From contig DWYC01000027.1 in the NCBI GenBank assembly GCA_019118925.1, forward strand, positions 1-32,891: a stretch of DNA of 32,891 nt, written 5' to 3'. Positions 5,472 to 31,010 of the stretch are shown here, one piece after another. The notes beneath the pieces are model-generated. The model saw only the letters and a program-made list of their open reading frames with translations. It did not search any database and was not told where the DNA came from. Position 1 is the first letter of the stretch, and each line of letters starts with the position of its first letter. The DNA is from Candidatus Flavonifractor intestinipullorum (GTDB taxonomy: Bacteria > Bacillota > Clostridia > Oscillospirales > Oscillospiraceae). Position numbers and translations under genes: made by a program.

Positions 5472-6095
5472 GTGGGACGATCTGTTGCATACCATTCACC
5501 GATTATTCCGGTGAGAAATCAATTTTATTTCCGGCTTTCTGCTGCGGTACAGAAGGTGGCCGTGCTTTTCGCAGGCAGCACATCTTCGCGGGAAGCGAGC
5601 CGGGAAGCCGTCAACCGCGAAGCGGAGCAGATATTGACCGTCTATGGAAACAGTATGCTGCGTTTTGCCTATTCTTATCTCCATAACATGAGCGACGCAG
5701 AAGATGTGCTGCAGGAGACCATGGTCCGGTTCTTAAAAGCGGCGCCGGCTTTTGCATCCGAGCAGCATAGGAAGGCGTGGCTCTTGCGCGTAGTGGGAAA
5801 TTTGAGTAAAAATCGGCTTGCTTACAATAAAATACGGATGGCGGACGAACTGAGGGATGAGCTTATAGCGGAGAACCGGGACGATTTATCGTTTGTCTGG
5901 GATGTGGTCAAAGCCCTGCCCGGCGACCTCCGTGAGACAATCCATCTGTTTTATTATGAGGGGTATTCGACCAAACAGATTGCGGATATTCTCCAGAAGA
6001 AGGAGGCCACGGTACGCACGCATCTGCGCCGGGGCCGGGAAAAGCTGCGGGAAATTTTGAAGGGAGAATACGATTTTGAAGATAAAATACGATGA
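5472..6095 (+). CDS. ECF-type RNA polymerase sigma-70 factor
   Basis: Up to 207 residues from GTG 5472. The conserved part starts near residue 50: region 2 includes LRFAYSYLHNMSDAEDVLQE, and region 4 includes LRETIHLFYYEGYSTKQIAD and ATVRTHLRRGREKLR. ECF factors are usually about 170 residues, so the true start may lie downstream. GTG 5563 or TTG 5633 (preceded by GGAG) are alternatives, and none has an ideal ribosome site. It directs RNA polymerase to a small regulon and is presumably held by the anti-sigma factor encoded by the next, overlapping gene. A likely target is the TGAAAC-type promoter at 4423. Confidence 0.85.
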   Translation: MGRSVAYHSPIIPVRNQFYFRLSAAVQKVAVLFAGSTSSREASREAVNREAEQILTVYGNSMLRFAYSYLHNMSDAEDVLQETMVRFLKAAPAFASEQHRKAWLLRVVGNLSKNRLAYNKIRMADELRDELIAENRDDLSFVWDVVKALPGDLRETIHLFYYEGYSTKQIADILQKKEATVRTHLRRGREKLREILKGEYDFEDKIR

Positions 6096-6705
6096 GATTA
6101 TGGAAAAGGTTGAAGTGAGCGGTGAAATGAAGACGCGCATTCTCTCCCGGCTATCCGGAATAGGGCCCGCGCAGAACCCGCGCCCCAAAATCGTGAACTT
6201 CTCCGCGCGCCGAAGATATTTGACGGCCGCCTGTCTGGCCGTTCTGCTCCTGGGCTCCATCGCCCTGCCGCAGCTGTGGAACAGCGGGCAGCCCGACCCC
6301 GATTATGTAATTAGCGTGCCCCATATTGCCGGGGCCGCATCAGCCGAAGAGTTGTCTGAAATGGTGGGATTTGCGGTGACGGATCTCACGAACCTGCCGT
6401 TTGAAATAGATCAGGCCATCTATACCGCCTATGGAGATCAGCTGGCCGAGATTACCTATCAGGGGGACGGCCAGACAGCCACCTTCCGCAAGTCGATGGG
6501 AAGGGAGGATAATTCCGGTGATTATACCATATACAGCGCGACCGTTGTACTCCAGCTGAATGGGATGACGGTCACCCTGAAGGGCGGCGGAGAGACGTAT
6601 ACACTGGCCGTCTGGTCCGATGGAGAGTACGCCTACTCATTGAATCTGACCGTGGGTTTGACGGCGGAAGCGTGGAGAGAACTGATTTTGAGCATGACAT
6701 GTTAA
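6076..6705 (+). CDS. Membrane anti-sigma factor with DUF4367-like exterior domain
   Basis: A 209-residue protein. It starts at TTG 6076 with GGGAGA upstream and overlaps the sigma gene by 20 bases, which suggests translational coupling. Residues 1-45 are a cytoplasmic, charged sigma-binding region. Residues 49-66 (LTAACLAVLLLGSIALPQ) are the single membrane helix. Residues 85-209 form an outside domain (EITYQGDGQTATFRKSMGRE, then SGDYTIYSAT and LAVWSDGEYAYSL) closely resembling the C-terminal domain of the secreted protein at 4510-5403. The arrangement is a standard one-TM anti-sigma factor. The shared domain suggests both bind the same ligand or each other. Confidence 0.8.
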   Translation: MKIKYDEIMEKVEVSGEMKTRILSRLSGIGPAQNPRPKIVNFSARRRYLTAACLAVLLLGSIALPQLWNSGQPDPDYVISVPHIAGAASAEELSEMVGFAVTDLTNLPFEIDQAIYTAYGDQLAEITYQGDGQTATFRKSMGREDNSGDYTIYSATVVLQLNGMTVTLKGGGETYTLAVWSDGEYAYSLNLTVGLTAEAWRELILSMTC

Positions 6706-6820: not shown

Positions 6821-7153
6821 TTAATCCTCGTATCGGCCCTTTTGATACGCAAGGCCCCAGGCTTCCATGGCGCTGATAATAGGGCGCATGGAGTTCCCCA
6901 ACTCGCTCAAGGCGTACTCCACCCGGGGCGGAACTTCGGGGTAGACCGTCCGGGTGACGATGCCGTCCTCTTCCAGAGAGCGCAGGCTGTCGGTCAGGAC
7001 CTTCTGACTGATCCCGTCCAGGTCCTTCTTCAGCTCGTTGAACCGCCAGGGCCGGGACAGGAGGTTGCGGAGAATCAATAATTTCCATTTGCTTCCGATG
7101 AGCTGCACCGTAGTGGCCACAGGACAGGCCGGAAGTTCCTCTTTGGTACGCAT
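6821..7153 (-). CDS. HxlR-family redox/electrophile-responsive regulator
   Basis: A 110-residue winged-helix regulator. The start at ATG 7153 is supported by AAAGGAGG at 8-base spacing; upstream in-frame codons lack this. Motifs are CPVATTVQLIGSKWKLLILR (recognition of the HxlR core, with the nearly invariant Cys at residue 10), RFNELKKDLDGISQKVLTDS and SLEEDGIVTRTVYPEVPPRV. HxlR members such as YodB, HypR and QorR sense quinones, disulfide stress or aldehydes through that N-terminal Cys and often control an adjacent oxidoreductase. Here the gene is divergent from the ACGX peptide/radical SAM/oxidoreductase operon and is its likely regulator. Confidence 0.9.
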   Translation of the reverse strand: MRTKEELPACPVATTVQLIGSKWKLLILRNLLSRPWRFNELKKDLDGISQKVLTDSLRSLEEDGIVTRTVYPEVPPRVEYALSELGNSMRPIISAMEAWGLAYQKGRYED

Positions 7154-7195
7154 AGAAATGCCTCCTTTAGTGCTGCACGGAGCAGGGATACATTC

Positions 7196-7225
7196 ATTAT
7201 AGATGCTGCCGTCCGGGTTGGTCAA
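7196..7225 (-). promoter_or_regulatory. hxlR promoter
   Basis: On the minus strand, TTGACC (7225-7220), an 18-base spacer and a perfect TATAAT (7201-7196), 43 bases ahead of the hxlR start. Confidence 0.7.
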
Positions 7226-7226
7226 T

Positions 7227-7295
7227 GGGTTACAAAAAGGTGACCCGGTAATAAAAAAGTGCGTACTTGTGGGCACAAATCGGGCCCGTTATACT
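7227..7295 (+). promoter_or_regulatory. ACGX operon promoter with two candidate HxlR operators
   Basis: A weak -35 TTGTGG (7267-7272), 17 bases, then TATACT (7290-7295). The near-palindrome AAGTGCGTACTT (7257-7268) abuts the -35. An inverted repeat GGGTTAC...GTGACCC (7227-7246) lies just upstream of the hxlR -35. HxlR proteins bind short inverted repeats in such divergent intergenic regions. That these are the sites is an inference. Confidence 0.5.
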
Positions 7296-7354
7296 GAAGC
7301 CGAGGGTCAGGAAAACACCCGACGGCCCAAGAAACTCAAAGGAGGAACCCTATT

Positions 7355-7531
7355 ATGGCACTGAAGAATCTGTTTGGTTGGAGCAGCAAGGCTGCGGACA
7401 AGGCCCCGTCCGCCTGTGGGAGCGCCTGCGGCGCCGGCGACAAGCCCGCCGAGCCGTCCTCGGCCTGCGGGGCCGCCGACCCCAAGCCCACCGCCTGCGG
7501 GAGTGCCTGCGGCGCCGGCGACAAGAAGTAA
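7355..7531 (+). CDS. ACGX-repeat RiPP precursor peptide
   Basis: A 58-residue peptide. It starts at ATG 7355 behind AAAGGAGG. Residues 1-18 (MALKNLFGWSSKAADKAP) form a leader-like segment. The rest holds five ACGX motifs: SACGSACGAGDKPA (residues 19-32), SACGAAD (36-42) and TACGSACGAGDKK (46-58). The only cysteines are those five. It lies 119 bases upstream of a radical SAM/SPASM enzyme. I recall a predicted 'ACGX-repeat peptide' family paired with an 'ACGX system' radical SAM/SPASM family, and this matches both. Cys-centred thioether crosslinks or another radical modification are expected, but the mature product is unknown to me. At this length it is easily missed by gene callers. Confidence 0.85.
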   Translation: MALKNLFGWSSKAADKAPSACGSACGAGDKPAEPSSACGAADPKPTACGSACGAGDKK

Positions 7532-7537
7532 GCGCCC

Positions 7538-7608
7538 GCGCCCCCGCGGGGCAGCCTGCGGGGGCGCACTTCCCAAGGGACGGAGTCTGCTCCGTGGTTT
7601 GGGAAATG
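7538..7608 (+). promoter_or_regulatory. Two hairpins between precursor and maturase genes
   Basis: GCGCCCCCGC...GCGGGGGCGC (7538-7547 with 7558-7567), followed by a second, interrupted stem (TTCCCAA...ACGGAG with CTCCGT...TTGGGAA, about 7569-7606). No long T-run follows, so this is more likely an mRNA stabiliser or partial attenuator than a full terminator. It would keep precursor transcript in excess over enzyme transcript. Confidence 0.55.
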
Positions 7609-7650
7609 CGCCCCCCTCTCAAAAAACAAGCAATCAGGAGGTAACTGGAG

Positions 7651-8685
7651 ATGGAATACTTCGCGTTTCAGTGGCACATCACCGACGCGTGCGACCAGCG
7701 GTGCAAGCACTGCTACATTTTTGCCGAGGACACCCGCAAGAAGCTGGACGCCATGACCTGGCCCCAGATGCAGGACACCTTTTACAACTGCCTGGACTTC
7801 TGTGAGGTCTGCCACCGCCGGCCCTACTTCTACCTCACCGGCGGCGACCCCATCCTGCACCCCAAATTCTGGGACCTGCTGGGACTGATGAAGGTGCACC
7901 GCATCCCCTTCACCATCCTGGGCAATCCCTTCCATCTGACCGACAAGGTGTGCAGGCGGCTGAAGGAGTACGGCTGCGAGAAGTACCAGCTCTCCCTGGA
8001 CGGCCTGCGCCAGACCCACGACTGGTTCCGCAAGCCCGGCAGCTTCGACTGCACCCTGGAGAAGATCACCTGCCTCAAGGGGGCGGGTATCCGGGCGGTC
8101 ATCATGACTACGGTCTCCGGCGCCAACATCGACGAGATTCCGGCGCTCATCGACACCGTGGTGGCCCACAAGGCGGACGTGTTCGCCTTTTCCCGCTACT
8201 GCCCCACCAGCGAAGAGAAGGACGTGGGCATCGAGCCGCTGCGCTACCGGCAGCTCCTGGCCGACTGCGACAGGAAGTTCAAGGAGTACGAGGCCGCAGG
8301 CTGTGAGACTTATTTCAACAAGAAGGACCACCTGTGGACTCTGTACGAGTATGAGACGGGCGAGTTCCGCATCCCGGAGAACGCGCAGGAGGGCATGATC
8401 TACGGCGGATGCAACTGCGGCAACTGCCATCTGACCATCCTGCCCACCGGCGACGTGTACGCCTGCCGCCGGGTGCTCAGCAGCAAGGTAGGAAATGCGT
8501 TCAGCGACCGGCTGGCCGACCTGTGGGTGTGTCAGGTGGAGCAGTACCGGGACTACGCCGGGTTTGAGAAGTGCGCCAAGTGCGAGCTGCTGGCCTGGTG
8601 CCGGGGCTGTCCGGCGGTGGCCAGCGGGCGGGACGGAAATTTCTACGCCGCCGATCCCCAGTGCTGGAAGGAGGTGTCCGCATGA
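7651..8685 (+). CDS. Radical SAM/SPASM peptide maturase, ACGX system
   Basis: A 344-residue enzyme, with ATG 7651 after CAGGAGGT. The radical SAM motif CDQRCKHC (Cys 14, 18, 21) sits in WHITDACDQRCKHCYIF, followed by the GGDP motif (TGGDPILHP) and the usual half-barrel. From about residue 250 a SPASM-type region carries GGCNCGNCHLTILPTGDVYA and later CAKCELLAWCRGCP, which would bind auxiliary 4Fe-4S clusters. SPASM enzymes typically modify ribosomal peptides, and the gene directly follows the ACGX peptide. It overlaps the next oxidoreductase gene at ATGA (8682-8685). The expected role is installing radical-based linkages on the ACGX cysteines or neighbouring residues. Substrate assignment rests on context and family memory. 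Confidence 0.9.
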   Translation: MEYFAFQWHITDACDQRCKHCYIFAEDTRKKLDAMTWPQMQDTFYNCLDFCEVCHRRPYFYLTGGDPILHPKFWDLLGLMKVHRIPFTILGNPFHLTDKVCRRLKEYGCEKYQLSLDGLRQTHDWFRKPGSFDCTLEKITCLKGAGIRAVIMTTVSGANIDEIPALIDTVVAHKADVFAFSRYCPTSEEKDVGIEPLRYRQLLADCDRKFKEYEAAGCETYFNKKDHLWTLYEYETGEFRIPENAQEGMIYGGCNCGNCHLTILPTGDVYACRRVLSSKVGNAFSDRLADLWVCQVEQYRDYAGFEKCAKCELLAWCRGCPAVASGRDGNFYAADPQCWKEVSA

Positions 8686-9644
8686 TCCCCAAAACCATGA
8701 ACGCTGTCCTGCTCACCGGGCCCACCCCGGCGGAGGAGATCCGGTTGACCGAAGTCCCTGTGCCGGAGGTGCGGCCCGGCTGGGTGCTGGTAAAGGTCAA
8801 AGCCTTCGGCCTGAACCACTCCGAGCAGATTTTGCGGCTGGGCGAGATCCGGGCGGACTACATCCAAAAGCCCATCATCCCCGGCATCGAGTGTGTGGGG
8901 GAGGTGGCGGACCCGTCGGACAGCCCTCTGGAAGTTGGGCAAAAGGTGGCCGCCCTCATGGGCGGCATGGGCCGGAGCTTCCACGGCAGCTACGCGGAGT
9001 ACGCTCTGCTCCCCGCCCACCATGTGTTCCCCGTCTCCTCGGATTTGTCGTGGCGGGAGCTGGCCGCCGTGCCGGAGACCTGGTTCACCGCCTGGGGCTC
9101 CCTCTTTGAATGCCTGCGCCTGGAGCCCGGGGATACCCTGCTGATCCGGGGCGGCACCTGTGCCCTGGGCTATGCGGCCATCCAGATCGCCAGAGGGCTG
9201 GGCTGCCATGTCATCGCCACTACTCACCGGGAGAGCAAGCTCCCCCTGCTGGCGGAGGCGGACGAGGCCCTGCTGGACACGGGGACGCTGGCGGGCCGGG
9301 TGTCCGGGGTGACCAGGGCCCTGGAGCTGGTGGGGCCCAGAACCCTCCGGGACACCCTGAACTGTGTGAAGAAGGGCGGTGTAGTGTGCAGCACCGGGAT
9401 CTTGGGCGGGGTGTCCGTCCTGGACGGGTTCGACCCCATCAAGGACATCCCCAACGGGGGGTATCTCACCGGCTTTTTCAGCAACTATCCCACCCAGCCG
9501 GTGATGGACACCATCTTTTCCCTCCTTCGGGATTACCGGCTCAAGCCCCGTGTGGGCGCGGCCTTTGACCTGACCCACATTGCCGACGCCTGCGGGGCCC
9601 AGGACAGCGGAATCGTGAACGGAAAGATCGTGGTCACGGTCTGA
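8682..9644 (+). CDS. MDR-superfamily quinone oxidoreductase/zinc-less alcohol dehydrogenase
   Basis: A 320-residue NAD(P)H-dependent oxidoreductase. It starts at ATG 8682 with AAGGAGGTG just upstream, overlapping the radical SAM stop. It has an N-terminal GroES-like domain (RPGWVLVKVKAFGLNHSE, then PIIPGIECVGEVADP) and a Rossmann domain at about residues 135-270, with IRGGTCALGYAAIQIARGLG near 155. The Cys/His ligands of zinc-dependent dehydrogenases are not evident, pointing to the quinone oxidoreductase branch. HxlR-type regulators often control such enzymes, so in this operon it may serve redox or electrophile detoxification. A part in peptide maturation is also possible. Confidence 0.85.
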   Translation: MIPKTMNAVLLTGPTPAEEIRLTEVPVPEVRPGWVLVKVKAFGLNHSEQILRLGEIRADYIQKPIIPGIECVGEVADPSDSPLEVGQKVAALMGGMGRSFHGSYAEYALLPAHHVFPVSSDLSWRELAAVPETWFTAWGSLFECLRLEPGDTLLIRGGTCALGYAAIQIARGLGCHVIATTHRESKLPLLAEADEALLDTGTLAGRVSGVTRALELVGPRTLRDTLNCVKKGGVVCSTGILGGVSVLDGFDPIKDIPNGGYLTGFFSNYPTQPVMDTIFSLLRDYRLKPRVGAAFDLTHIADACGAQDSGIVNGKIVVTV

Positions 9645-9731: not shown

Positions 9732-9764
9732 AAAAAATCGGAGTATCCCGAAGGATACTCCGAT
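9732..9764 (-). terminator. Terminator of tRNA-Pro copy 1
   Basis: Minus strand CGGAGTATCC-TTCG-GGATACTCCG followed by ATTTTTT, directly after the tRNA CCA end. A UUCG loop makes it a strong intrinsic terminator. Confidence 0.9.
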
Positions 9765-9840
9765 GGTCCGAGTGACTGGATTCGAACCAGCGGCCTCTTG
9801 AACCCCATTCAAGCGCGATACCAAACTTCGCCACACCCGG
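9764..9840 (-). tRNA. tRNA-Pro(GGG), copy 1
   Basis: A 77-base cloverleaf on the minus strand. The acceptor CCGGGTG pairs with CACTCGG, the D stem GCGA with TCGC, the anticodon stem CTTGA/TCAAG carries loop ATGGGGT (anticodon GGG), the T arm is GCTGG-TTCGAAT-CCAGT, and CCA is encoded. It is identical base for base to the plus-strand copy at 30934-31010. Confidence 0.97.
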
Positions 9841-12854: not shown

Positions 12855-14228
12855 TCAGCACTCGGGGAGGGAGGCGGCGGCCACGCTCTGACCCACCCGG
12901 CGGGCCTTCTCGTCGGGGAGGGTGGGGTTGATCTTGCCGGCGATGTCGGGGTACTCGTCGGCGAGGACCCGCTTGGCGTGCTCCAGGATGAGATCGCCGC
13001 CCTTGCCGGACATGACCCGGCCCAGCAGCAGGATGTGCTTGAAGCCGTAGAAGTGGTAGTACAACCGCAGGGCGTGGCCCAGATACACGCCGATGGAGCG
13101 GTAGATGGCGGCGGCCCGGTCGTCGTCCTGCTCCATGAGCCCCTGAACCACCTTGAGCTTCTCGGCGGGGGAGAGGGACTCGTCCAGCTGGATTCCGGCG
13201 GCGGGGGCCAGCTTGATGACCGAATCCTGAGAGAAGTACTTCACGCCGCAGCCGATGTCCCCCGACCACTCGTCCACCATGGCGGTGGGGGCGGCGTCCA
13301 CGGGGACAAACGCCAGCTCGTTGAGCCAGCCGGTGATATTGCCCTTCTCGTCCACAAAGCCCACGGCCTCGCTGGTGCCCATGGCGATGCCCAGCACGTT
13401 GTTCTCCTCCAGGCTCATGGCCCCCGCCAGGGCGGAGACGTCGCCGTCGTTGGCCACCACGATGGGCACGTCGCCAATCTCCTTGGCGGCCCGGAGGTAG
13501 ATGTCCTTCACCTTGGCGTCGAACTGGTCCTTGGGGACCTTCAGGAAGAGGGAGGCCACCATGGTGCGGTTGTCGATGTAGATACCGGCGGAGGACACGC
13601 CGATGGCGTCCACCCGGGGCATGTGGGCCGCAGCCGACTTGAAGGCGTCCACGATGCCCTGGTAGTGATAATCCGGGTCGGAGTTGGTCTTGGGGAACCA
13701 GACGACTTCCTCGGAAAAGACGGGATTGCCGTCAATGACGGCCGAGACCTTCCGGTCGCTTCCGCCGGCGTCGAAGCCGATGCGGCAGCCGTTCATGTGC
13801 CGGCCTACGGCCTCGGACTTGCTGACCTCGGCGGGGACGGCGTCGCAGCAGACCACCTCGAAGGGCTTTTCATAGACGCTGGCCATGAAATCCTGGTCGA
13901 AATCCCGGCTTCCGCCCTTGGAATAGGCGTTGTGAATGGCCTCGAAAATCGCCCTGTCCCCGGCGAGGTAGACCTTGAAGCCGCCCTTGAGCCACAAAAG
14001 GGTCTTGATGATGCGGTCCACATAGTAGAGGTCGGCCTGAGCCATCTCAGGGGTGCCGTGAATGAAGGTCTTGTAGACGGCCACCTGGCCGCCGGAGCGC
14101 TCCACGGCGATGTCCAGAGGCTTTTTGGCGTCCTTCAGAAAGGACTGATAGAAGGGAAAGAGCGGGATATAGTTGGGGTCCAGCTCGGGGAGATGCTGTA
14201 CAGACACGTCGATGCCAAGATGTTTCAT
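12855..14228 (-). CDS. ROK/ASKHA-type sugar kinase with long N-terminal extension (candidate ManNAc/GlcNAc kinase)
   Basis: A 457-residue protein; ATG 14228 behind GGAGGAGG. The phosphate-1 motif, usually within the first 15 residues of ROK kinases, appears only around residue 153 (RIGFDAGGSDRKVSAVIDG). It is followed by VVANDGDVSALAG near 257 and GIAMGTSEAVG near 275, then a helical C-terminus. The first 145 residues form an extra domain that I do not recognise. The gene is divergent from the sialic acid operon across a region with RpiR-like palindromes. Neu5Ac catabolism needs a ManNAc or GlcNAc kinase and none is encoded elsewhere in the window, so this is the best candidate. The role is inferred from context. 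Confidence 0.7.
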   Translation of the reverse strand: MKHLGIDVSVQHLPELDPNYIPLFPFYQSFLKDAKKPLDIAVERSGGQVAVYKTFIHGTPEMAQADLYYVDRIIKTLLWLKGGFKVYLAGDRAIFEAIHNAYSKGGSRDFDQDFMASVYEKPFEVVCCDAVPAEVSKSEAVGRHMNGCRIGFDAGGSDRKVSAVIDGNPVFSEEVVWFPKTNSDPDYHYQGIVDAFKSAAAHMPRVDAIGVSSAGIYIDNRTMVASLFLKVPKDQFDAKVKDIYLRAAKEIGDVPIVVANDGDVSALAGAMSLEENNVLGIAMGTSEAVGFVDEKGNITGWLNELAFVPVDAAPTAMVDEWSGDIGCGVKYFSQDSVIKLAPAAGIQLDESLSPAEKLKVVQGLMEQDDDRAAAIYRSIGVYLGHALRLYYHFYGFKHILLLGRVMSGKGGDLILEHAKRVLADEYPDIAGKINPTLPDEKARRVGQSVAAASLPEC

Positions 14229-14306
14229 GGGGATCCTCCTCCTTAAAAAATCAGCGGCGGAATCGCCCGCTCCCGCCGCGCCGGCGGGGGAGAGAGCCTG
14301 TCTTCC

Positions 14307-14339
14307 CTTATAGGCTATCAGCTTTTTGAAATCTGTCAA
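14307..14339 (-). promoter_or_regulatory. Possible kinase gene promoter
   Basis: Minus strand has a perfect TTGACA (14339-14334), but the best -10 (TATAAG, 14312-14307) is 21 bases away. A GATTTC/GAAATC half-site lies in the spacer. Weak support. Confidence 0.3.
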
Positions 14340-14358
14340 GGGACCGGGGGGGAGAAAA

Positions 14359-14412
14359 TGAAAAAATTTTTCAAAATAATCCTTGACGGAAAGAACCTTT
14401 CAAAGGTATGAT
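14359..14412 (+). promoter_or_regulatory. Sialic acid operon promoter with RpiR-type palindrome
   Basis: TTGACG (14383-14388), 18 bases, TATGAT (14407-14412). Upstream at 14359-14373 is TGAAAAAATTTTTCA, a near-perfect inverted repeat of the TGAAA/TTTCA type bound by RpiR/MurR/NanR regulators. A further GAAA...TTTC pair sits in the spacer. The regulator is encoded two genes along. Confidence 0.65.
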
Positions 14413-14488
14413 GTACTTGGCACAAAGGGAGCGCCCGGTTGTGCCGCGCAAATATGGCATTTCGAACAAAAGGAAGGCGGAATTGATC

Positions 14489-15709
14489 ATGGATCAGGAA
14501 ATGAGAGCGCGCCTGCAAGCGCATAAGGACTGGATGGAGGAAGAGCTGGATATCTGCATCAAATTCTGGCTGAAGCACGGAATGGACCCGGTGAACGGGG
14601 GCGTGTACACTTGTCTGGACCGGAAGGGCGAGATCTACTCCACGGATAAGAGCGTGTGGATGCAGGGCCGCTGCGCCTGGATGTTCGCCTATCTGTGCCA
14701 TCAGTACGGGGTGAAGGACGAGTGGCTCGCGGCCAGCAAGAGCTGCCTGGACTTTATGGAAGCCCACTGCATCAACCGTCAGGCGGGCAACCGCATGTAC
14801 TTTACGGTGACGGCCGACGGAAAGCCCCTGCGGCAGCGCCGCTATTGTTTCTCCGAGGGCTTTTACGCCATCGCCAACGCCGAGTATTACGGCGTGACCG
14901 GCGAGCGGGAGTGCCTGGAGCGGGCCCGGGCGGCCTACGAGCTCATCTACAAGCTCAATAACGGCCTCATCAAGGACCCCACCGGCCTGGGCCCCAAGAC
15001 CATTCCCGAGACCCGCACCGGCCGTGCACTGGCCGACCCCATGATCTATCTGAACATCACCTCGGTGCTGCGCCGGGTGGATCAGGACCCCGACTGGCAG
15101 AAGCTCTACGCCGACCGGGCCCACGAGTGCGTGGAGACCATCTTCAAATATCACTATAAGCCCGACCTCCACTGCACGCTGGAGTCGGTGGCCCCCGACG
15201 GGACTCCCCGCCTGGAGGTGACCGAGGGCCGGGTGGTCAACCCGGGCCACGACATCGAGTGCTCCTGGTTCCTGATGGAGGCGGCCCGCTACGCCAACGA
15301 CCCGGAGATTCACGCCACCGCCGTGAAGATTTTCGACCAGGCCTTTGCCGCCGGCTGGGACCAGGAGTACGGCGGACTGCTCTACTTCATCGACTGCCTG
15401 GGCAAGCCCACCGAGGCCTATGAGCACGATATGAAGCTCTGGTGGCCCCACGACGAGACCCTGATCGCCTCGATGATGATCTTCCGGGACACCGGCGACG
15501 TGAAGTATCTGGAGAAGTTCGAGCAGACGCTGGACTACTGCAAGCAGCACTTCTCCGACCGGGAGTACGGCGAGTGGTACGGCTACCTGCGCCGGGACGG
15601 CCTGCCCACCATGCCCAGCACCAAGGGCTCGACCTTCAAGGGCCCCTTCCACCTGCCCCGGATGCTCTCCATGGTGGACGGCATGCTGGCGCAGCTGCTG
15701 GCGGAATAA
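14489..15709 (+). CDS. N-acylglucosamine 2-epimerase (AGE family)
   Basis: A 406-residue (alpha/alpha)6-barrel epimerase interconverting ManNAc and GlcNAc. I chose ATG 14489, with AAGGAAGG upstream, over an unsupported ATG at 14408, because MDQEMRARLQAHKDWMEEEL is the natural family start. The AGE landmarks are present: SVWMQGRCAWMFAYL, NPGHDIECSW with the catalytic-type His at 254, and KGPFHLPRMLSM with His 388, matching the two essential histidines of animal and cyanobacterial AGE. WWPHDE is at about 319-323. It is first in the operon, upstream of nanR-like and lyase genes. AGE acts on unphosphorylated ManNAc, so the route may be ManNAc to GlcNAc before phosphorylation, unlike the NanE/NanK route. 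Confidence 0.9.
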   Translation: MDQEMRARLQAHKDWMEEELDICIKFWLKHGMDPVNGGVYTCLDRKGEIYSTDKSVWMQGRCAWMFAYLCHQYGVKDEWLAASKSCLDFMEAHCINRQAGNRMYFTVTADGKPLRQRRYCFSEGFYAIANAEYYGVTGERECLERARAAYELIYKLNNGLIKDPTGLGPKTIPETRTGRALADPMIYLNITSVLRRVDQDPDWQKLYADRAHECVETIFKYHYKPDLHCTLESVAPDGTPRLEVTEGRVVNPGHDIECSWFLMEAARYANDPEIHATAVKIFDQAFAAGWDQEYGGLLYFIDCLGKPTEAYEHDMKLWWPHDETLIASMMIFRDTGDVKYLEKFEQTLDYCKQHFSDREYGEWYGYLRRDGLPTMPSTKGSTFKGPFHLPRMLSMVDGMLAQLLAE

Positions 15710-15748
15710 GGGGAGAAGATTATCTTTGCAGAAAGGAGCGGGGGATGG

Positions 15749-16603
15749 ATGGCCTTCAGCAACGTGTTTGCCCAGCTGGATAACGAATACTACCAGCTGA
15801 CCAGTGCGGAAAAACGGGTGGCGGATTACATTGTAGCGCACCAGAGCCAGACGCAGTACATGTCCATTTCGGAGCTGGCGGAGAAGTGCAATGTAGCCGA
15901 GGCCACCATTTCCCGCTTCTGCCGCCGGATGGGGTATAAGGGCTACAGCGCCTTCAAGCTGGCGGTGGCCAACTCCGTCACCGGGCAGGCGGCCGCAGGC
16001 GCGGCCGTGCCCGGAGGGGAGGGCGCCGCACTGCCGGGCGGCCCCTATGGGGAGATGCTCAAAACCAACATCGAAGCCATTACTCAGACGGCCAACCTGG
16101 CCCGGCCGGAACAGATCCGCCGGGCGGCCCGGATGCTTCTGGAGGCGGACAAGGTATTCTGCATGGGCCAGGGGGGCTCCATGATCATGGCGGAGGAGGC
16201 GGCGCACCTTTTCTCCACGGTGCGTCCGGGCTTTTTCCCGGTGAGCGACTCCCACCTTCAGGCCATTCGCTGCGCGCAGCTCACCCGCGGCGATGTGGTG
16301 TTTTATTTCTCCTATTCCGGCTCCACCCGGGATTTAACGGACGCGCTGCGCCTGGCCCGGGAGCGGCAGGCGGGAGTCATTCTGGTTACCCGCTTCCCCA
16401 AATCGCCCGGGGCCGTCTACGCCGATATTGTGCTCCAATGCGGCTCCAATGAGAGCCCCACCCAGCTGGGGACGGTGGCCGCCCGGATGGCCCAGCTCTT
16501 TTTGCTGGATATGCTCTATTACGAGCTCTGCCGGATGGACGAGACGGGCACGGCCGCCGCCCGGAGCCGGGTGGCCCGGGCGCTCTCGGACAAGCACCTG
16601 TAA
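15749..16603 (+). CDS. RpiR-family regulator of sialic acid use (NanR-like)
   Basis: A 284-residue regulator; ATG 15749 after AAAGGAGC. Residues 1-77 form the HTH_6 domain (TSAEKRVADYIVAHQSQTQY, then CNVAEATISRFCRRMGYKGY). Residues 120-260 form a SIS sugar-phosphate-binding domain (FCMGQGGSMIMAEEAAH, VVFYFSYSGSTRDLTDAL). RpiR members in Gram-positive sialic acid operons sense an amino sugar phosphate such as ManNAc-6-P or GlcN-6-P and bind GAAA/TTTC palindromes. Such sites are visible at 14359 and 16695. It lies between the epimerase and transporter genes on the same strand. Confidence 0.88.
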   Translation: MAFSNVFAQLDNEYYQLTSAEKRVADYIVAHQSQTQYMSISELAEKCNVAEATISRFCRRMGYKGYSAFKLAVANSVTGQAAAGAAVPGGEGAALPGGPYGEMLKTNIEAITQTANLARPEQIRRAARMLLEADKVFCMGQGGSMIMAEEAAHLFSTVRPGFFPVSDSHLQAIRCAQLTRGDVVFYFSYSGSTRDLTDALRLARERQAGVILVTRFPKSPGAVYADIVLQCGSNESPTQLGTVAARMAQLFLLDMLYYELCRMDETGTAAARSRVARALSDKHL

Positions 16604-16694
16604 GGAGCGGCGGCTCCCGGCGGGCAGAAATGGTAATTTAATCCAGAAAGAAAAGAAAATTACTTGAAAAAAATTTGCGCGGGCAGAAAGAAAA

Positions 16695-16745
16695 GAAAAT
16701 ATTTTCAAAACTGCTATTGACAAACCACAATATAGATTGTACAAT
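16695..16745 (+). promoter_or_regulatory. Transporter promoter with perfect palindrome
   Basis: A consensus TTGACA (16717-16722), 17 bases, then TACAAT (16740-16745). The perfect 12-base palindrome GAAAATATTTTC lies at 16695-16706, 10 bases upstream of the -35. It fits an RpiR-type operator and matches the site type at the epimerase promoter. The binding-protein gene starts 62 bases after the -10. Confidence 0.75.
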
Positions 16746-16806
16746 CTACACAACGGGCCGGGAGAATAAACCGGCGGTTTTAGAAAAAATGGGAGGAAAT
16801 GATGAC

Positions 16807-18174
16807 ATGAAAAATTGGAAAAAAGTCCTTGCTCTTGTCCTCGCCACCGGTATGACGCTGAGTCTGGCCGCCTGCAACGGCGGCGGCTCCACGGCGAGCA
16901 CTGCGCCCAGCGATACGGGCAGCGGTGAGGGCGGCGGCTCCACCAGCGGCAACGTCTCCATCGAGCTGTGGACCTACCCCATCGGCCAGTTCGGCGATCA
17001 GGAGACCCTGGACGGCATCATCGCCGCGTTTAAGGAAGTACATCCCGAGATCGACGTGACCATCCAGCTGCTGGACTACACCAACGGCGACACCCAGGTC
17101 ACCTCCGCCATCACCGCCGGCACCACCCCCGACATCATCATGGAGGGCCCCGAGCGTCTGGTCTCCAACTACGGCGCCAACGGCCTGATGGTGGATCTGT
17201 CCGACCTGTGGACCGAAGAGGCCACCGCCGACATCTCCGCCGTCAGCGAGGCCGTGGTCAACGCCTGTAAGGGCAGCGACGGCGTCTACTACGAGTACCC
17301 TCTGTGCATGACCACCCACTGCATGGCCATCAACTACGAGGTGTTCGAGGCGGCCGGCGCCCTCCAGTACATCGACGAGGAGACCCGCACCTGGACCACC
17401 GACGACTTCGTGGCCGCGATGGAGGCCGTCCGTGACGCCGCTGCGGCGGGCACCGTGAACGTCATGTTCCCCGGCATCATCTACTGCGGCGGCCAGGGCG
17501 GCGACCAGGGCACCCGTGCTCTCGTCAACAACCTGTACTCCGGCACCTACACCAATGCCGAGCACACCGAGTACACCGCCAACTCCCCCGAGAACGTGGA
17601 GGCCCTGACCCTCCTGAAGAGCATGGTGGACAACGGCTCCCTGACGGCCGACTCCAGCTTCCAGGCTGCCGACGAGCTGCAGCAGTTCGCCAACGGCACC
17701 GCCGCTGTGACCTTCTGCTGGAACGCCTCCAACCAGTCTCAGTATGCCGAGCAGGTTCAGTTCACTCCCTTCGCCATGGCCTTCCCCTCTGACGACGGCG
17801 AGCCCGAGCTGTGCGGCGGTATCTACGGCTTCGGCATCTTCGATCACGGCGACGAGGCCAAGATCGAGGCCGCCAAGGAGTTCATCCGCTTCGTGTGCGA
17901 CGACGCCGAGCAGGGCCCCGAGAGCGTCCGCCTCTCCGGCTTCTTCCCCGTGCGCGATTCCTTCGGCAATGTCTATGAGGGCACCGAGAACGAGGCGCGC
18001 ATGAGCGAGTTCCAGGTCATGATGCCTTACCTGGGCGACTACTACAACGTCATCGGCGGCTGGACGGAGCAGCGCACCAACTGGTACAACATGCTCCAGC
18101 AGATCTTCGTCAGCGGCGCCGACATCCAGACTGCGGCCGATGAGTTTGTCACCGCCAGCAACGCCAACATCTAA
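16807..18174 (+). CDS. ABC transporter sugar-binding lipoprotein (sialic acid uptake)
   Basis: A 455-residue extracellular solute-binding protein of the type 1 family. The start is ATG 16807 with GGGAGGAA upstream. The signal peptide (KNWKKVLALVLATGMTLSLA) ends in a lipobox LAAC, with the lipid-bearing Cys near residue 21, and is followed by a Gly/Ser/Thr-rich linker. The body has the usual two-lobe pattern, such as VSIELWTYPIGQFG, EIDVTIQLLDYTNGDTQV and TAVTFCWNASNQSQYA. It captures the substrate outside the membrane for the two permeases that follow. The ligand is inferred to be Neu5Ac or a related amino sugar from the lyase operon. Confidence 0.88.
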   Translation: MKNWKKVLALVLATGMTLSLAACNGGGSTASTAPSDTGSGEGGGSTSGNVSIELWTYPIGQFGDQETLDGIIAAFKEVHPEIDVTIQLLDYTNGDTQVTSAITAGTTPDIIMEGPERLVSNYGANGLMVDLSDLWTEEATADISAVSEAVVNACKGSDGVYYEYPLCMTTHCMAINYEVFEAAGALQYIDEETRTWTTDDFVAAMEAVRDAAAAGTVNVMFPGIIYCGGQGGDQGTRALVNNLYSGTYTNAEHTEYTANSPENVEALTLLKSMVDNGSLTADSSFQAADELQQFANGTAAVTFCWNASNQSQYAEQVQFTPFAMAFPSDDGEPELCGGIYGFGIFDHGDEAKIEAAKEFIRFVCDDAEQGPESVRLSGFFPVRDSFGNVYEGTENEARMSEFQVMMPYLGDYYNVIGGWTEQRTNWYNMLQQIFVSGADIQTAADEFVTASNANI

Positions 18175-18203
18175 GTTTCAGGCTGGAAAACCTTTATGCA
18201 CTG

Positions 18204-18239
18204 CTGTGCCCGCTCCCTGTTGAGAGGGGGCGGGCACAG
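18204..18239 (+). terminator. Partial terminator between binding protein and permease genes
   Basis: A CTGTGCCCGC...GCGGGCACAG stem without a long T-run. Such intercistronic hairpins commonly lower permease expression relative to the binding protein. Confidence 0.6.
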
Positions 18240-18294
18240 TTCTTATCCCACGGGAGTGGGGGAAGTGTGAAATTTTGTGAAAGAGGGGAGACTT

Positions 18295-19233
18295 ATGGCG
18301 CAAAATGCCCCGGCGGTCACCGCCGAGCGGAAGCCCAAAAAGCAACGGCAGTCCCAGTTCTCCGGTATGAGTAAGGCGCTCATCCGGAGAGAGACCATCT
18401 CGGCCTATTTGTTCCTGCTGCCCAGCCTGATCTTCTTTGTGGGATTTGTTGTAGTCCCCATGGTCATGTGCGTGGTCTACAGTTTTCTGGACATGGGCCT
18501 GGATGTGAGCAGCGCCACCTTCATCGGTCTTGGGAACTATATTGAGATGTTCCAGGACAAGGTGTTCCTGAAGGGCCTGCTCAACACCGCGATTATCGTG
18601 GTGGTGGCCGTACCCACGGTAACGGCTTTCTCCCTGTGGGTGAGCTCCGCCATCTATCAAATGAAGCCGGTATCCCGGTCCTTCTTCCGCTGTGTGTTCT
18701 ACCTGCCGGTGGTCACCGGCACCGTGGCCGTCACCGTGGTGTGGAAGTGGATGTTCAACACCTATAACGGCCTCATCAATCAGGTGTTCGGCACCAGTAC
18801 CAACTGGCTGGGCAATGAGATGACCGCCATTTGGTGTATCATTCTCATCCTGTTCACCACCTCCATCGGCCAGCCCATCGTGCTCTATGTGGCGGCGCTG
18901 GGCAACGTGGACCAGTCCCTCATCGAGGCCGCCGAGGTGGACGGCGCCACCAAGCTCCAGGTTTTCTGGAAGATCAAGTGGCCCCAGATCCTGCCCACCA
19001 CCCTGTACATCCTGGTCATTACCACCATCAACTCCTTCCAGTGCTTCGCACTGATTCAGCTGTTGACTTCCGGCGGACCCAACAACGCCACGACCACCAT
19101 CATGTACTATATCTTTGACACGGCCTACAAGTATCAGCGCTTCGGCTATGCCAACGCCATGGGCGTTATCCTGGCCATCATCATCGCGATCTTCTCGGCC
19201 ATCCAGTTCAAAGTGACCAAGACCGACAATTAA
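18295..19233 (+). CDS. ABC sugar permease, MsmF/UgpA-type
   Basis: A 312-residue membrane protein; ATG 18295 after AGAGGGGAG. After a charged cytoplasmic N-terminus it has about six membrane helices, for example LFLLPSLIFFVGFVVVPMVM and IILILFTTSIGQPIVLYVAA. The EAA coupling loop (IEAAEVDGATKLQVFWKIKWP) contacts the ATPase. It pairs with the permease encoded 12 bases downstream to form the channel of the importer. Length and motif order are normal for the family. Confidence 0.9.
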   Translation: MAQNAPAVTAERKPKKQRQSQFSGMSKALIRRETISAYLFLLPSLIFFVGFVVVPMVMCVVYSFLDMGLDVSSATFIGLGNYIEMFQDKVFLKGLLNTAIIVVVAVPTVTAFSLWVSSAIYQMKPVSRSFFRCVFYLPVVTGTVAVTVVWKWMFNTYNGLINQVFGTSTNWLGNEMTAIWCIILILFTTSIGQPIVLYVAALGNVDQSLIEAAEVDGATKLQVFWKIKWPQILPTTLYILVITTINSFQCFALIQLLTSGGPNNATTTIMYYIFDTAYKYQRFGYANAMGVILAIIIAIFSAIQFKVTKTDN

Positions 19234-19245
19234 GGGGGTGAGAGG

Positions 19246-20091
19246 ATGAATAACGCGAAAAGCAAACTCGCCGGGACTTCAACCGGCTACAAGTGGCTCT
19301 CTGTAGTGATTCTGATCCTGCTGGCCGTCTTCTTCATCTTCCCGCTCTACTGGATCGTCACCGGTTCCTTTAAAGACGCCATCACCATCAACGCCCGTAC
19401 CCCCCAGTGGTTCCCCCTGGCCCCTACCATGGAGAACTACGCCAAGCTGTTTAAAAACCCGGCCTTCCGCTGGCTGGGCAACACGGTATTCATGGCGGTC
19501 ATGGCCATGTTCCTGACCTGCCTCACCGCCGCTCTGGCCGGCTATGCTCTGGCCAAGAAGCGGTTCTACGGCCGCGGGCTGCTGTTCACCATTATCATCT
19601 GCGCCATGGCCCTGCCCAAGCAGGTCATCGTCATCCCCCTGCTGCAGGAGATGAACATCCTGCACTTGGCCGACAACATCTGGGCGGTGATTCTGCCCAC
19701 CGTAGGCTGGCCCTTCGGCGTGTTCCTGATGAAACAGTTCTCGGAGACCATCCCGACAGAGATTTTGGAGGCCGCCCGGGTGGACGGCGCGGGCGAGCTG
19801 CGCACCTTCTTCAGCGTGGTCTTCCCCATGATTAAGCCCGGCATCGGCGCGCTGGCCATCTTCACCTTTGTCAACTCCTGGAACGACTACTTCCTGCAGC
19901 TGATCATGCTGACCAGCCGGGAGAACTGGACCATCTCTCTGGGTATTGCCCGCCTGCAGGGCGAGATGTCCAGCGACTTCGGCCTCATCATGGCCGGCGC
20001 GACTCTGGCGGCCATCCCCATTGTGGCGGTGTTCATCGCCTTCCAAAAGTACTTCACCCAGGGCATTGCCATGGGCGCGGTCAAGGGCTAA
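19246..20091 (+). CDS. ABC sugar permease, MsmG/UgpE-type
   Basis: A 281-residue membrane protein; ATG 19246. It starts with the typical YKWLSVVILILLAVFFIFPL helix and LYWIVTGSFKD loop, has about six helices, and carries the EAA loop EILEAARVDGAGELRTFFSV. It is the partner of the preceding permease. A strong hairpin follows before the lyase gene, so catabolic genes may be read at a lower level or from read-through. Confidence 0.9.
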   Translation: MNNAKSKLAGTSTGYKWLSVVILILLAVFFIFPLYWIVTGSFKDAITINARTPQWFPLAPTMENYAKLFKNPAFRWLGNTVFMAVMAMFLTCLTAALAGYALAKKRFYGRGLLFTIIICAMALPKQVIVIPLLQEMNILHLADNIWAVILPTVGWPFGVFLMKQFSETIPTEILEAARVDGAGELRTFFSVVFPMIKPGIGALAIFTFVNSWNDYFLQLIMLTSRENWTISLGIARLQGEMSSDFGLIMAGATLAAIPIVAVFIAFQKYFTQGIAMGAVKG

Positions 20092-20133
20092 GAACCTGGC
20101 ACGTTCACACGGTTTAGAGATACGGAGCCGGAG

Positions 20134-20170
20134 GGAGCCCGTCCCACGGCGTGGGGCGGGCTCCTTTTAT
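20134..20170 (+). terminator. Hairpin terminator/attenuator before the lyase gene
   Basis: A GGAGCCCGTCCCA...GTGGGGCGGGCTCC stem followed by TTTTATT. It would at least partly terminate the transporter transcript. I see no clear promoter between it and the lyase gene, so read-through is likely. Confidence 0.7.
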
Positions 20171-20221
20171 TCAACCAGCGTGCAAACGAAACGAGCAAAG
20201 AACGATTTGGAGGAAATTTTC

Positions 20222-21127
20222 ATGAGCGATCTGAAGAAATACTGCGGCGTAATCCCCGCATTTTATGCCTGCTATGATGAGGCGGGCAACATCTCGCCCG
20301 ACCGGGTGCGGGGACTGACCCGTTACCTGATTGGGGAGGGCGTCAACGGCCTGTATGTGGGCGGCTCTTCCGGCGAGTGCATCTATCAGAGCGTGGCCGA
20401 GCGCAAGCTCGTGCTGGAGAACGTGATGGCGGAGGCCAAGGGCAAGGTAGTGGTCATCGCCCACGTGGCCTGCAACAATACCGCCGACAGCCAGGAGCTG
20501 GCCGCCCACGCCGAGAGCCTGGGCGTGGACGCCATCGCCGCCATCCCGCCCATCTACTTCCATCTGCCCGAGTACGGCATTGCCCAGTACTGGAACGACA
20601 TCTCCGCCGCCGCGCCCAACACGGACTTTGTCATCTATAACATCCCGCAGCTGGCCGGCGTGGCCCTCACGCCCTCTCTGCTCGCCGAGATGAAGAAGAA
20701 CCCCCGCGTGGTGGCGGTGAAGAACTCCTCCATGCCCACCCAGGATATCCAGATGTGGCACGACGCGGGCGTTCTGGTCTTTAACGGCCCCGACGAGCAG
20801 TTTATCTCCGGCCTGGCCATGGGCGCCTGCGCCGGCATCGGCGGCACGTATGCCGTCATGCCCAAGCTCTACCGGAAGATCTATGAGCACTTCCAGAACG
20901 GGGAGATGGAGGCCGCCCGCCAGGTTCAGTACGAGGCCGACCGCATTATCTACAAGATGTGCGAGGCCCACGGCAACCTCTATGCGGTGCAAAAGGCCAT
21001 CCTGGCCAAGAAGGGCGTGGAGTGCGGCTCGGTCCGCAAGCCCATGCCCGCGCTGATTGAGAGCGACCAGGCCATTGTGGACCAGGCCGCCGCCATGATT
21101 GACGCCGCCGTGGCCAAGTACTGCTGA
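20222..21127 (+). CDS. nanA: N-acetylneuraminate lyase
   Basis: A 301-residue DHDPS/NAL-family TIM-barrel aldolase; ATG 20222 after TTGGAGGAAA. It cleaves Neu5Ac to ManNAc plus pyruvate in the cytoplasm. Visible landmarks are the carboxylate-binding YVGGSSGE loop near residues 44-51, the catalytic Tyr 139 in FVIYNIPQLAGV, and the Schiff-base Lys 167 in VVAVKNSS. The GSSGE form (rather than GTTGE) and YNIP fit the NanA branch rather than dihydrodipicolinate synthase. The neighbours (AGE epimerase, NagA, NagB, importer) confirm the pathway. Confidence 0.93.
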   Translation: MSDLKKYCGVIPAFYACYDEAGNISPDRVRGLTRYLIGEGVNGLYVGGSSGECIYQSVAERKLVLENVMAEAKGKVVVIAHVACNNTADSQELAAHAESLGVDAIAAIPPIYFHLPEYGIAQYWNDISAAAPNTDFVIYNIPQLAGVALTPSLLAEMKKNPRVVAVKNSSMPTQDIQMWHDAGVLVFNGPDEQFISGLAMGACAGIGGTYAVMPKLYRKIYEHFQNGEMEAARQVQYEADRIIYKMCEAHGNLYAVQKAILAKKGVECGSVRKPMPALIESDQAIVDQAAAMIDAAVAKYC

Positions 21128-21165
21128 CGGCGCCGGGATATCCAAGTTCAGGAGGCACGATTGCA

Positions 21166-21918
21166 ATGAGAATTTATCTGTCTGAGGACTATAAGGCCAT
21201 GAGCCGCCGGGCGGCCAACATTATCTCCGCTCAGGTCATCACCAAGCCGGACAGCGTGCTGGGTCTGGCCACCGGCGGAACCCCGGTGGGGGCCTATCAG
21301 CAGCTGGTGGAGTGGTACAAGAAGGGCGATCTGAGTTTTGCCGAGATCAAGACGGTGAACCTGGACGAGTATCTGGGCCTCTCGCCCCACCACGAGCAGA
21401 GCTACCGCTATTTCATGCAGGTCAATCTCTTCGACCACATTGATATCAAGCCGGAGAACACCCACGTGCTCAACGGCCTCGCCAAGGACCCCCAGGCCGA
21501 GTGCGCCGCCTACAACCAGCTCATCCGGGACTTGGGAGGCATCGACCTGCAGCTTCTGGGCATGGGCCACAACGGCCACATCGCCTTTAACGAGCCGGGG
21601 GACGACTTCGGTCTGGAGACCCATGTGGTCACCCTCACCGACCGGACCATCGACGCCAACACCCGCTTCTTCGAGAGCCGGGACGAGGTGCCCCGCCACG
21701 CGCTGAGCATGGGCATCAAAAACATCATGCAGGCCCGGCGCATCCTCATCGTGGTCAGCGGCGAGGAGAAGGCCGAGACCGTGTGCAAGGCCTTTGCCGG
21801 CCCGGTCACCAAGGACGTGCCCGCCTCGGTGCTCCAGCTCCACCCCGATGTGACGCTGGTGGGCGACCGGGCGGCCCTGAGCAAGCTGGTAGAGGCAGGT
21901 GTCCCCGTATGCGGCTGA
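21166..21918 (+). CDS. nagB: Glucosamine-6-phosphate deaminase
   Basis: A 250-residue protein; ATG 21166 behind CAGGAGGC. It converts glucosamine-6-phosphate to fructose-6-phosphate plus ammonia, the last step feeding glycolysis. Motifs include VLGLATGGTPVGAYQQLVEW (phosphate binding), VNLDEYLGLSPHHEQSYRYF with the catalytic Asp near residue 67, and LLGMGHNGHIAFNEPGDDF. Length fits the short Gram-positive form, without the long allosteric tail of the E. coli enzyme. It overlaps nagA by 10 bases (ATGCGGCTGA), indicating translational coupling. Confidence 0.95.
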   Translation: MRIYLSEDYKAMSRRAANIISAQVITKPDSVLGLATGGTPVGAYQQLVEWYKKGDLSFAEIKTVNLDEYLGLSPHHEQSYRYFMQVNLFDHIDIKPENTHVLNGLAKDPQAECAAYNQLIRDLGGIDLQLLGMGHNGHIAFNEPGDDFGLETHVVTLTDRTIDANTRFFESRDEVPRHALSMGIKNIMQARRILIVVSGEEKAETVCKAFAGPVTKDVPASVLQLHPDVTLVGDRAALSKLVEAGVPVCG

Positions 21919-30933: not shown

Positions 30934-31010
30934 CCGGGTGTGGCGAAGTTTGGTATCGCGCTTGAATGGGGTTCAAGAGGCCGCTGGTTCGAATCCAGTC
31001 ACTCGGACCA
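30934..31010 (+). tRNA. tRNA-Pro(GGG), copy 2
   Basis: A 77-base cloverleaf identical to the minus-strand copy at 9764-9840, with anticodon GGG in the loop ATGGGGT and CCA encoded. A lower-GC mobilizable element begins a short distance downstream, and tRNA 3' ends are common integration sites. Confidence 0.97.

Follow-up and report, generated by a model that had tools for sequence, protein, structure and literature searches.

Regulators of the HxlR type act on genes for nitroreductases and quinone reductases; two of them, YodB and HypR, are thiol-sensing proteins with reductase targets. The extended SirTM operon of Staphylococcus and Streptococcus combines a SirTM ADP-ribosyltransferase and a Zn-macrodomain hydrolase with GcvH-L, LplA2, OYE and LLM, according to the relevant passages of PMC4518038 and PMC11490716. 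Here we describe a locus with features of both systems. It is carried by a 32,891-nucleotide stretch of a contig of Candidatus Flavonifractor intestinipullorum (GenBank DWYC01000027.1; "the window" denotes this whole stretch) and encodes an HxlR-family regulator, a small peptide with ACGX repeats, a radical S-adenosylmethionine (SAM)/SPASM enzyme and an MDR-family reductase. A putative operator upstream of the peptide gene recurs in the same genome ahead of a SirTM/Zn-macrodomain pair located on another contig, and genomes with the ACGX enzyme generally encode SirTM. The shared switch sequence suggests that the peptide locus and the ADP-ribosylation pair are parts of one stress system. This link is the valuable part of the analysis, and we did not meet it in the literature searches made.

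With YodB and HypR, the locus has in common the HxlR domain (PF01638) and a conserved N-terminal Cys, both found in the window protein, as well as a divergent reductase operon; in contrast to theirs, the operon includes a peptide/radical SAM module. With the extended SirTM operon, as far as the two sources describe it, the common elements are a SirTM with QG, a Zn-macrodomain, oxidoreductases, a small sulfur-bearing carrier and a link to oxidative stress (PMC4518038, PMC11490716). The systems differ in the carrier, for which a Cys peptide is here the candidate in place of lipoyl-GcvH-L, and in their regulators and oxidoreductases. A 2024 article on Zn-macrodomains knows of no SirTM target other than GcvH-L, calls the targets of other SirTM/Zn-macrodomain systems elusive, and reports that the macrodomain of one minimal pair was unable to demodify GcvH-L (PMC11490716, in part). 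Word searches found neither "radical" nor HxlR in the main text of PMC11490716, and neither radical SAM nor HxlR in that of PMC4518038. Our literature searches returned no paper joining three of the terms HxlR, macrodomain, sirtuin and radical SAM, and in a broader search none of the matches listed, judged by title and beginning of the abstract, dealt with an ACGX-SirTM link. Captophorins and bufferins, which are thiooxazole metallophores made by MNIO enzymes, resemble the present system by their repeated CG motifs and their link to stress (PMC12668002, in part); the window maturase differs from theirs in being a radical SAM enzyme.

RESULTS

The peptide and its maturase belong to a named family

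Direct reading of the window confirmed the gene content announced by the original prediction, i.e., a 58-residue peptide with five ACGX motifs, a radical SAM/SPASM enzyme with a CX3CX2C motif, an overlapping MDR gene and a divergent HxlR gene (Table 1). The prediction had also placed the peptide and the enzyme among the ACGX pairs known as bioinformatic families, and both exceed the curated NCBIfam cut-offs: the peptide scores 64 bits with TIGR04341 (cut-off 28; profile positions 1 to 65 of 65) and the enzyme 599.2 bits with TIGR04340 (cut-off 400; positions 1 to 341 of 341). By these profiles the pair is a member of an already named family, not a new one. The names of the two models cover the enzyme and the peptide only, and the associations with HxlR and its putative operator, with alternating reductases and with SirTM/Zn-macrodomain genes come from the present survey. 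All five Cys residues of the window peptide sit in its five ACG motifs, a number that does not result from composition, since 200,000 shuffled versions of its sequence never gave more than three. The enzyme has the motif C14-X3-C18-X2-C21 and, at its C-terminus, a SPASM region rich in Cys, and its stop codon overlaps the MDR start codon by 4 bp (ATGA).

An alignment of 14 enzymes was used to search contigs of genomes, and the best 80 of at least 552 confirmed relatives were kept as loci. In the best segment their enzymes share 72 to 99% identity with that of the window, and according to their titles they come mostly from metagenome-assembled genomes of gut Clostridia (Oscillospiraceae, Lachnospiraceae, and others). 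Two such genomes labeled Bacteroides (L067) and Brocadia (L092) are perhaps misbinned, which is a guess. A rule based on the leader found the peptide in 69 of the 80 loci, with MALSNL-like leaders and CGxACG repeats. In these 69 peptides Gly follows 454 of the 455 Cys residues and Ala precedes 428 of them, the commonest Cys-Cys spacings being 4 (201 cases) and 13 (142 cases).

The 11 loci missed by the rule are L034, L040, L051, L056, L059, L060, L063, L066, L067, L080 and L090. Among them, L063 and L090 are at a contig edge and L067 has masked bases. We re-read ten loci by eye in the three forward frames of the 420 bases upstream. L034, L040, L051 and L060 resemble collapsed or frameshifted repeats, L056 and L080 contain repeats without an evident leader, and L082 and L085 have short peptides. 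No peptide was seen in L059. Nor was one seen in L066 or in L090, a locus outside these ten, yet the upstream DNA of these two measures only 265 and 53 bp, respectively. Some genomes (G294, G306 and G231) encode two ACGX enzymes.

An HxlR gene and alternating reductases accompany the pair

Of the 63 loci with at least 3 kb of upstream DNA, 54 have a divergent HxlR gene on the minus strand in these 3 kb, and one Cys is invariant in all 58 aligned HxlR sequences, so that the proposed association of HxlR with ACGX pairs holds in the neighborhood survey. The window regulator contains a single N-terminal Cys, Cys10, in the sequence PACPV. Its best named models are RrpB (117.8 bits) and RrpA (82.2 bits), with scores below the respective cut-offs of 175 and 185. 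The formaldehyde-sensing HxlR of Bacillus subtilis has Cys11-X-Lys13 (PMC7835342, in part). As the consensus of the ACGX-associated proteins is CPV, without the Cys-X-Lys pair, we rejected formaldehyde sensing of that type. In three of the nine loci devoid of an HxlR gene (L055, L076 and L089), an Rrf2-like regulator gene was seen by eye upstream instead; these loci hold nitroreductase, PPOX, macrodomain and SirTM genes.

The association with an oxidoreductase was also borne out. At no more than 2.5 kb from the start of the maturase gene, 48 of 74 loci encode a nitroreductase and 22 an MDR protein, 70 in all; four have neither. L111 has an MDR gene and then a nitroreductase gene further on. 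In L034, L038 and L094 the nitroreductase gene starts approximately 1.6 kb after the start of the maturase gene, and another gene may intervene. The original prediction considered the MDR protein as either a detoxifier or a third biosynthetic enzyme. Because an unrelated nitroreductase takes its place in 48 of the 74 loci, it more likely acts as a generic NAD(P)H reductase than in a biosynthetic step peculiar to MDR proteins, and the idea of the MDR protein as an obligatory third enzyme was rejected. The top NCBIfam model of the window MDR protein is PIG3 quinone oxidoreductase, at 148.8 bits, under the cut-off of 296.8.

Further downstream, many of the same operons contain genes that the original prediction did not mention, for an FMN/ferredoxin protein and a Zn-macrodomain/SirTM pair. 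Among the 62 loci whose downstream DNA extends for at least 3.7 kb, nitroreductase was found in 44, MDR in 17, PPOX-ferredoxin in 36, Zn-macrodomain in 25 and SirTM in 33, with neighbor profiles built from the very 80 loci in which they were then counted. Sixteen of the 62 hold nitroreductase, PPOX, macrodomain and SirTM together, and 18, like the window, have nitroreductase alone (11) or MDR alone (7). Representative neighbors scanned as PF00881, as PNPOx_N plus 4Fe-4S, and as PF01661/NF003163; the representative sirtuin scored 22.1 bits with the SIR2 Pfam model, below its cut-off of 24. By eye, none of the 40 recurrent open reading frame clusters listed is an exporter or a protease/peptidase at a fixed place; two clusters, one resembling ABC-ATPases (5 loci) and one resembling EamA (4 loci), occupy scattered positions. 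The lack of a dedicated exporter or protease in the original prediction thus holds for these clusters and fits an intracellular peptide.

The putative operator is shared with a SirTM/Zn-macrodomain operon

The 1 kb that precedes the maturase gene contains the core GTGCGTACTT in 66 of the 80 loci, and in 64 of the 73 that have at least 700 bp there. It tracks the regulator, being present in 51 of the 54 loci with an HxlR gene versus four of the nine without (p = 0.0008), and it is missing from the three loci with an Rrf2-like gene. From this conservation we infer that HxlR binds the putative operator.

The longer pattern GGTNAY-N6-GTGCGTACTT matches the 2.25-Mb assembly of the window exactly at two places, 7247-7268 of the window and 34264-34285 of contig C17, the latter 63 bp ahead of the macrodomain start; the number of exact matches expected with uniform bases is 0.008. 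When up to two mismatches were allowed, this assembly gave three matches versus two for a reversed control pattern. In 68 genomes scanned with at most one mismatch, we obtained 33 matches versus nine for the reversed control: 20 in ACGX loci (19 loci, with two matches in G347), four at SirTM operons (in the window genome, G318, G347 and G368), one at an HxlR/nitroreductase pair in G194, and eight unassigned. The G194 match (L155, contig C58) has one mismatch and is flanked on one side by a different HxlR gene and on the other by a nitroreductase-like gene, a hint that the regulon may be wider. Among the 19 SirTM places situated outside 6 kb of the maturase gene, seven have the exact core upstream, to about 2 kb, two have it with one mismatch, and two are cut by a contig end.

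SirTM co-occurs with the ACGX enzyme in genomes

The sirtuin of the relatives is closest to 5a3a (239 bits), which we take to be the Streptococcus pyogenes SirTM, and scores only 22 bits with the canonical Sir2 1ma3. The macrodomain reaches 377.6 bits with NF003163 (cut-off 272), and its closest solved chains are the protein-ADP-ribose hydrolases 8rsi, 5kiv and 8rsl (271 to 277 bits). The motif YTQG occurs in 30 of 34 sirtuins and YTGG in the other four; the zinc-loop pattern occurs in 25 of 28 macrodomains. In the window genome the pair is encoded at 34349-35122 and 35131-35970 of contig C17. It carries YTQG and GCFHPLHNCIDN, and with QG for HG beside a zinc macrodomain it falls in the SirTM/Zn-macrodomain class.

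Of 400 genomes searched, 34 exceed the TIGR04340 cut-off. We compared them with 34 controls hand-picked from the remainder, mainly on grounds of completeness and before SirTM had been looked at in them; the threshold of 400 bits for SirTM was chosen after the scores were seen. At this threshold SirTM is present in 32 of the 34 ACGX genomes versus seven of the 34 controls (Fisher p = 4.5e-10, uncorrected for relatedness). In 13 of the 32 it lies within 6 kb of the maturase gene, and in 19 elsewhere or on another contig.

Full-length GcvH (at least 127 bits) was found in nine of the 34 ACGX genomes, and 12 pass the Pfam cut-off if short matches are counted. No GcvH-L gene was found in the SirTM operon of the window genome: the sole PF01597 match of this assembly, which is 81% complete, is on contig C60, not C17, and is partial (positions 40 to 74 of 122; 23.7 bits, cut-off 22.2). 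Contig C28 of G306 (L161) has two tandem SirTM-like genes behind one macrodomain gene. More distant sirtuin-like genes, at approximately 184 to 255 bits with the SirTM profile, form tandem pairs or triples on G143:C207, G182:C22, G246:C1, and G294:C1 and C5.

The maturase resembles SbtM

After TIGR04340, the family that best matches the window enzyme is the thio(seleno)oxazole maturase SbtM (TIGR04082), with 169 bits, followed by a third family with 103 bits. The match spans SbtM positions 198 to 515 of 516, so that the N-terminal third is missing. The SbtM profile matched 14 of 14 aligned ACGX enzymes with E values of 1e-20 or better. Among four other radical SAM/SPASM proteins of the same bacterial family used as controls, three scored 62 to 77 bits, and for the fourth SbtM was not among the 25 of 30 matches shown. 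SbtM substrates lose four hydrogens, the product on Cys being a thiooxazole (review PMC11002830, in part). The original prediction expected a loss of 2 Da per Cys, as in thioether formation; this is not favored, because the best other named family catalyzes a four-hydrogen reaction. Like SbtM, which acts on Cys, the maturase most likely oxidizes the Cys residues of the ACGX repeats, perhaps to 5-thiooxazoles (-4 Da each). Given the SbtM scores and the four-protein control, we lean to thiooxazoles over thioethers.

DISCUSSION

The gene content of the locus, its conservation, the alternation of reductases, the sharing of the operator sequence and the co-occurrence in genomes were established directly. 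On balance, they speak for the locus being one arm of an HxlR-controlled regulon of gut Clostridia that responds to redox or electrophile stress. HxlR would sense thiol-reactive stress via its single reactive Cys and repress both operons; under stress it would let go of the operator. At the window locus, derepression would turn on the ribosomal peptide with its Cys repeats, the radical SAM maturase and the NAD(P)H reductase; on the other contig, it would turn on the SirTM ADP-ribosyltransferase and Zn-macrodomain hydrolase. The radical SAM enzyme would modify the repeats, and the product might carry reactive sulfur ligands inside the cell. The MDR protein or the nitroreductase would clear the electrophile or keep the carrier reduced, and the flavin proteins may have either the electrophile or the peptide as their target. 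Through reversible ADP-ribosylation, the SirTM/Zn-macrodomain pair could tune the system, as happens to lipoyl-GcvH-L in Staphylococcus and Streptococcus.

More tentatively, the modified ACGX peptide might itself be the physiological ADP-ribosylation substrate, or a partner, of the SirTM/Zn-macrodomain pairs of gut Clostridia. The peptide would then be a ribosomal replacement for lipoyl-GcvH-L, a sulfur cofactor carrier built by a radical SAM enzyme, whose redox activity could be switched by reversible ADP-ribosylation of its Asp/Glu-rich spacers. We envisage this by a parallel, namely that the lipoyl-GcvH-L operon also joins a sulfur carrier, oxidoreductases and a SirTM/Zn-macrodomain pair. 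Operon linkage and the shared operator point to a definite candidate for the partner of these pairs and to one for their regulator, and ACGX peptides gain a physiological setting. If the proposal is true, a ribosomally synthesized and post-translationally modified peptide (RiPP) would serve as a redox carrier within the cell, controlled by ADP-ribosylation.

Several observations weigh against the proposed regulon. The 80 loci are the best-scoring ones, the genomes are not independent, and the controls were picked by the authors. With a SirTM threshold of at least 150 bits the contrast is weaker (32 of 34 versus 14 of 34 controls, p = 4e-6), and for the Zn-macrodomain at 200 bits or more it is 31 of 34 versus 14 of 34 (p = 2e-5). 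The best SirTM match contains one stop codon in four of the 32 genomes (G231, G294, G216 and G306). The window cassette itself is devoid of PPOX, macrodomain and SirTM genes, the peptide locus and the SirTM/Zn-macrodomain pair of this genome being on separate contigs. HxlR is absent from nine of the 63 testable loci, four of which retain the core; conversely, the core is absent from eight of the 19 unlinked SirTM places, and it occurs exactly at the SirTM operons of two of the seven SirTM-bearing genomes without ACGX (L119 and L121). An HxlR gene is present in eight of 27 SirTM stretches. The proteins it encodes score 163 to 171 on the profile of ACGX-associated HxlR versus mostly 196 to 216 for those of ACGX loci (exceptions L074 and L079, at 177), and two regulators, or a second HxlR type, may share the putative operator. 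The window assembly has a second HxlR gene besides that of the window (G000:C60:96874-97140; 107.5 bits), and no HxlR gene was found in the 10 kb read around the pair on C17. Literature searches on the ACGX system gave, among the matches listed, no relevant paper, be it an experimental study or the biochemistry of the pair. Lastly, the original prediction named as contrary evidence related genomes that keep the enzyme and the oxidoreductase and lack the peptide. We looked for them and found one clear case in the 80 loci: L059 encodes the radical SAM enzyme and an MDR protein, with no ACGX peptide anywhere in its 17 kb. This locus has no HxlR gene within 3 kb upstream and is perhaps a decayed or re-purposed copy. 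Overall, the original prediction is partly supported: its HxlR/reductase link stood, its MDR-specific step is less likely, and its -2 Da chemistry is not favored.

The peptide could instead be a thioether-bridged RiPP of the sactipeptide or ranthipeptide kind, each Cys being joined by the radical SAM enzyme to a carbon of another residue with a loss of 2 Da, and act as a signal or an antibacterial exported by housekeeping systems. Many SPASM maturases form thioethers. The closest solved chain to the window enzyme is SkfB (55.9 bits), which we take to be a thioether former, followed by 5wgg, presumably the thioether-forming CteB, and 5v1q, presumably the cross-linking SuiB, and the SbtM score of 169 bits is far below the cut-off of 350 for that family. 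We nevertheless regard an exported thioether peptide as rather unlikely, as SbtM is the best other named family, none of the 40 clusters inspected by eye is an exporter or peptidase with a constant position, and HxlR, reductases and an ADP-ribosylation pair would be odd companions for it. Somewhat less doubtful is an ordinary HxlR-controlled quinone-detoxification operon. In it, HxlR would control a nitroreductase or an MDR protein, the peptide would be no more than a thiol sponge or a buffer for metals, and SirTM/Zn-macrodomain would be an independent stress module that merely shares the operator. Nitroreductases and quinone reductases are known targets of HxlR-type regulators, and the operator also occurs at the HxlR/nitroreductase pair of L155 and at the SirTM operons without ACGX. 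Such an operon does not account well for the constancy of the peptide and the radical SAM enzyme while the reductases alternate (the constancy of the enzyme follows from the choice of loci, that of the peptide does not), nor for the association of SirTM with ACGX at the genome level.

A buffering role may also be more specific than that of a thiol sponge. The product might be a radical SAM-made counterpart of the copper-binding thiooxazole RiPPs, bufferins and captophorins, induced as metal or disulfide stress oxidizes HxlR. The CG repeats recall those of captophorin precursors, which with their EGKCG repeats bear 5-thiooxazoles and generally bind copper (PMC12668002, in part), and SbtM, too, makes a thiooxazole according to the part of PMC11002830 that covers it. 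On the other hand, captophorins are MNIO products, and no copper exporter or metal regulator, for which no profile search was made, was seen by eye in the 40 clusters listed. Like the exported thioether peptide, a metal buffer appears rather improbable. As for a fortuitous assembly of four unrelated genes, we found nothing to support it; the gene order kept in many loci, the 4-bp overlap and the conserved upstream motif make its probability negligible. Returning to the HxlR-controlled regulon, we consider it to be the best account of the locus.

Features of the window and neighboring genes

TABLE 1 Positions of the features of the ACGX locus in the window
Feature	Positions	Strand	Remarks
HxlR-family (MarR/DUF24) regulator gene, 110 residues	6821-7153	-	Divergent from peptide gene; PF01638, 109.8 bits
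Promoter-like site of HxlR gene, TTGACC-18-TATAAT	7196-7225	-	Adjoins putative operator; consensus match only
Putative HxlR operator, GGTTAC-N5-GGTGAC-N2-GGTAAT-N6-GTGCGTACTT	7228-7268		Upstream of peptide gene; proposed from conservation
Possible -10 hexamer of peptide promoter, TATACT	7290-7295	+	Read by eye; not picked up by consensus scan
ACGX-repeat precursor peptide, 58 residues	7355-7531	+	TIGR04341; leader MALKNLFGW; AGGAGG at 7340
Radical SAM/SPASM maturase, 344 residues	7651-8685	+	TIGR04340; PF04055 and PF13186
MDR-family NAD(P)H oxidoreductase, 320 residues	8682-9644	+	PF08240, PF00107
tRNA-Pro(GGG)	9764-9840	-	ARAGORN; downstream boundary of cassette

In the promoter consensus scan, the site of the HxlR gene matches at 11 of 12 positions, and the region has two such sites versus 0.8 expected. 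Upstream of the locus, at 5472-6705 of the window, an ECF-sigma-like gene followed by a gene for an anti-sigma-like membrane protein was recognized by eye. The same kind of reading suggests a sialic-acid/amino-sugar utilization cluster at 12855-23033, with genes for a ROK-like kinase, an epimerase, an RpiR-like regulator, an ABC sugar transporter, a NanA-like lyase, NagB and NagA. A second tRNA-Pro(GGG) gene is located at 30934-31010, on the strand opposite to that of the copy that bounds the cassette, and beyond it lies, by eye, a Mob-type relaxase-like gene (31510-32493, minus strand), perhaps part of an integrated mobile element.

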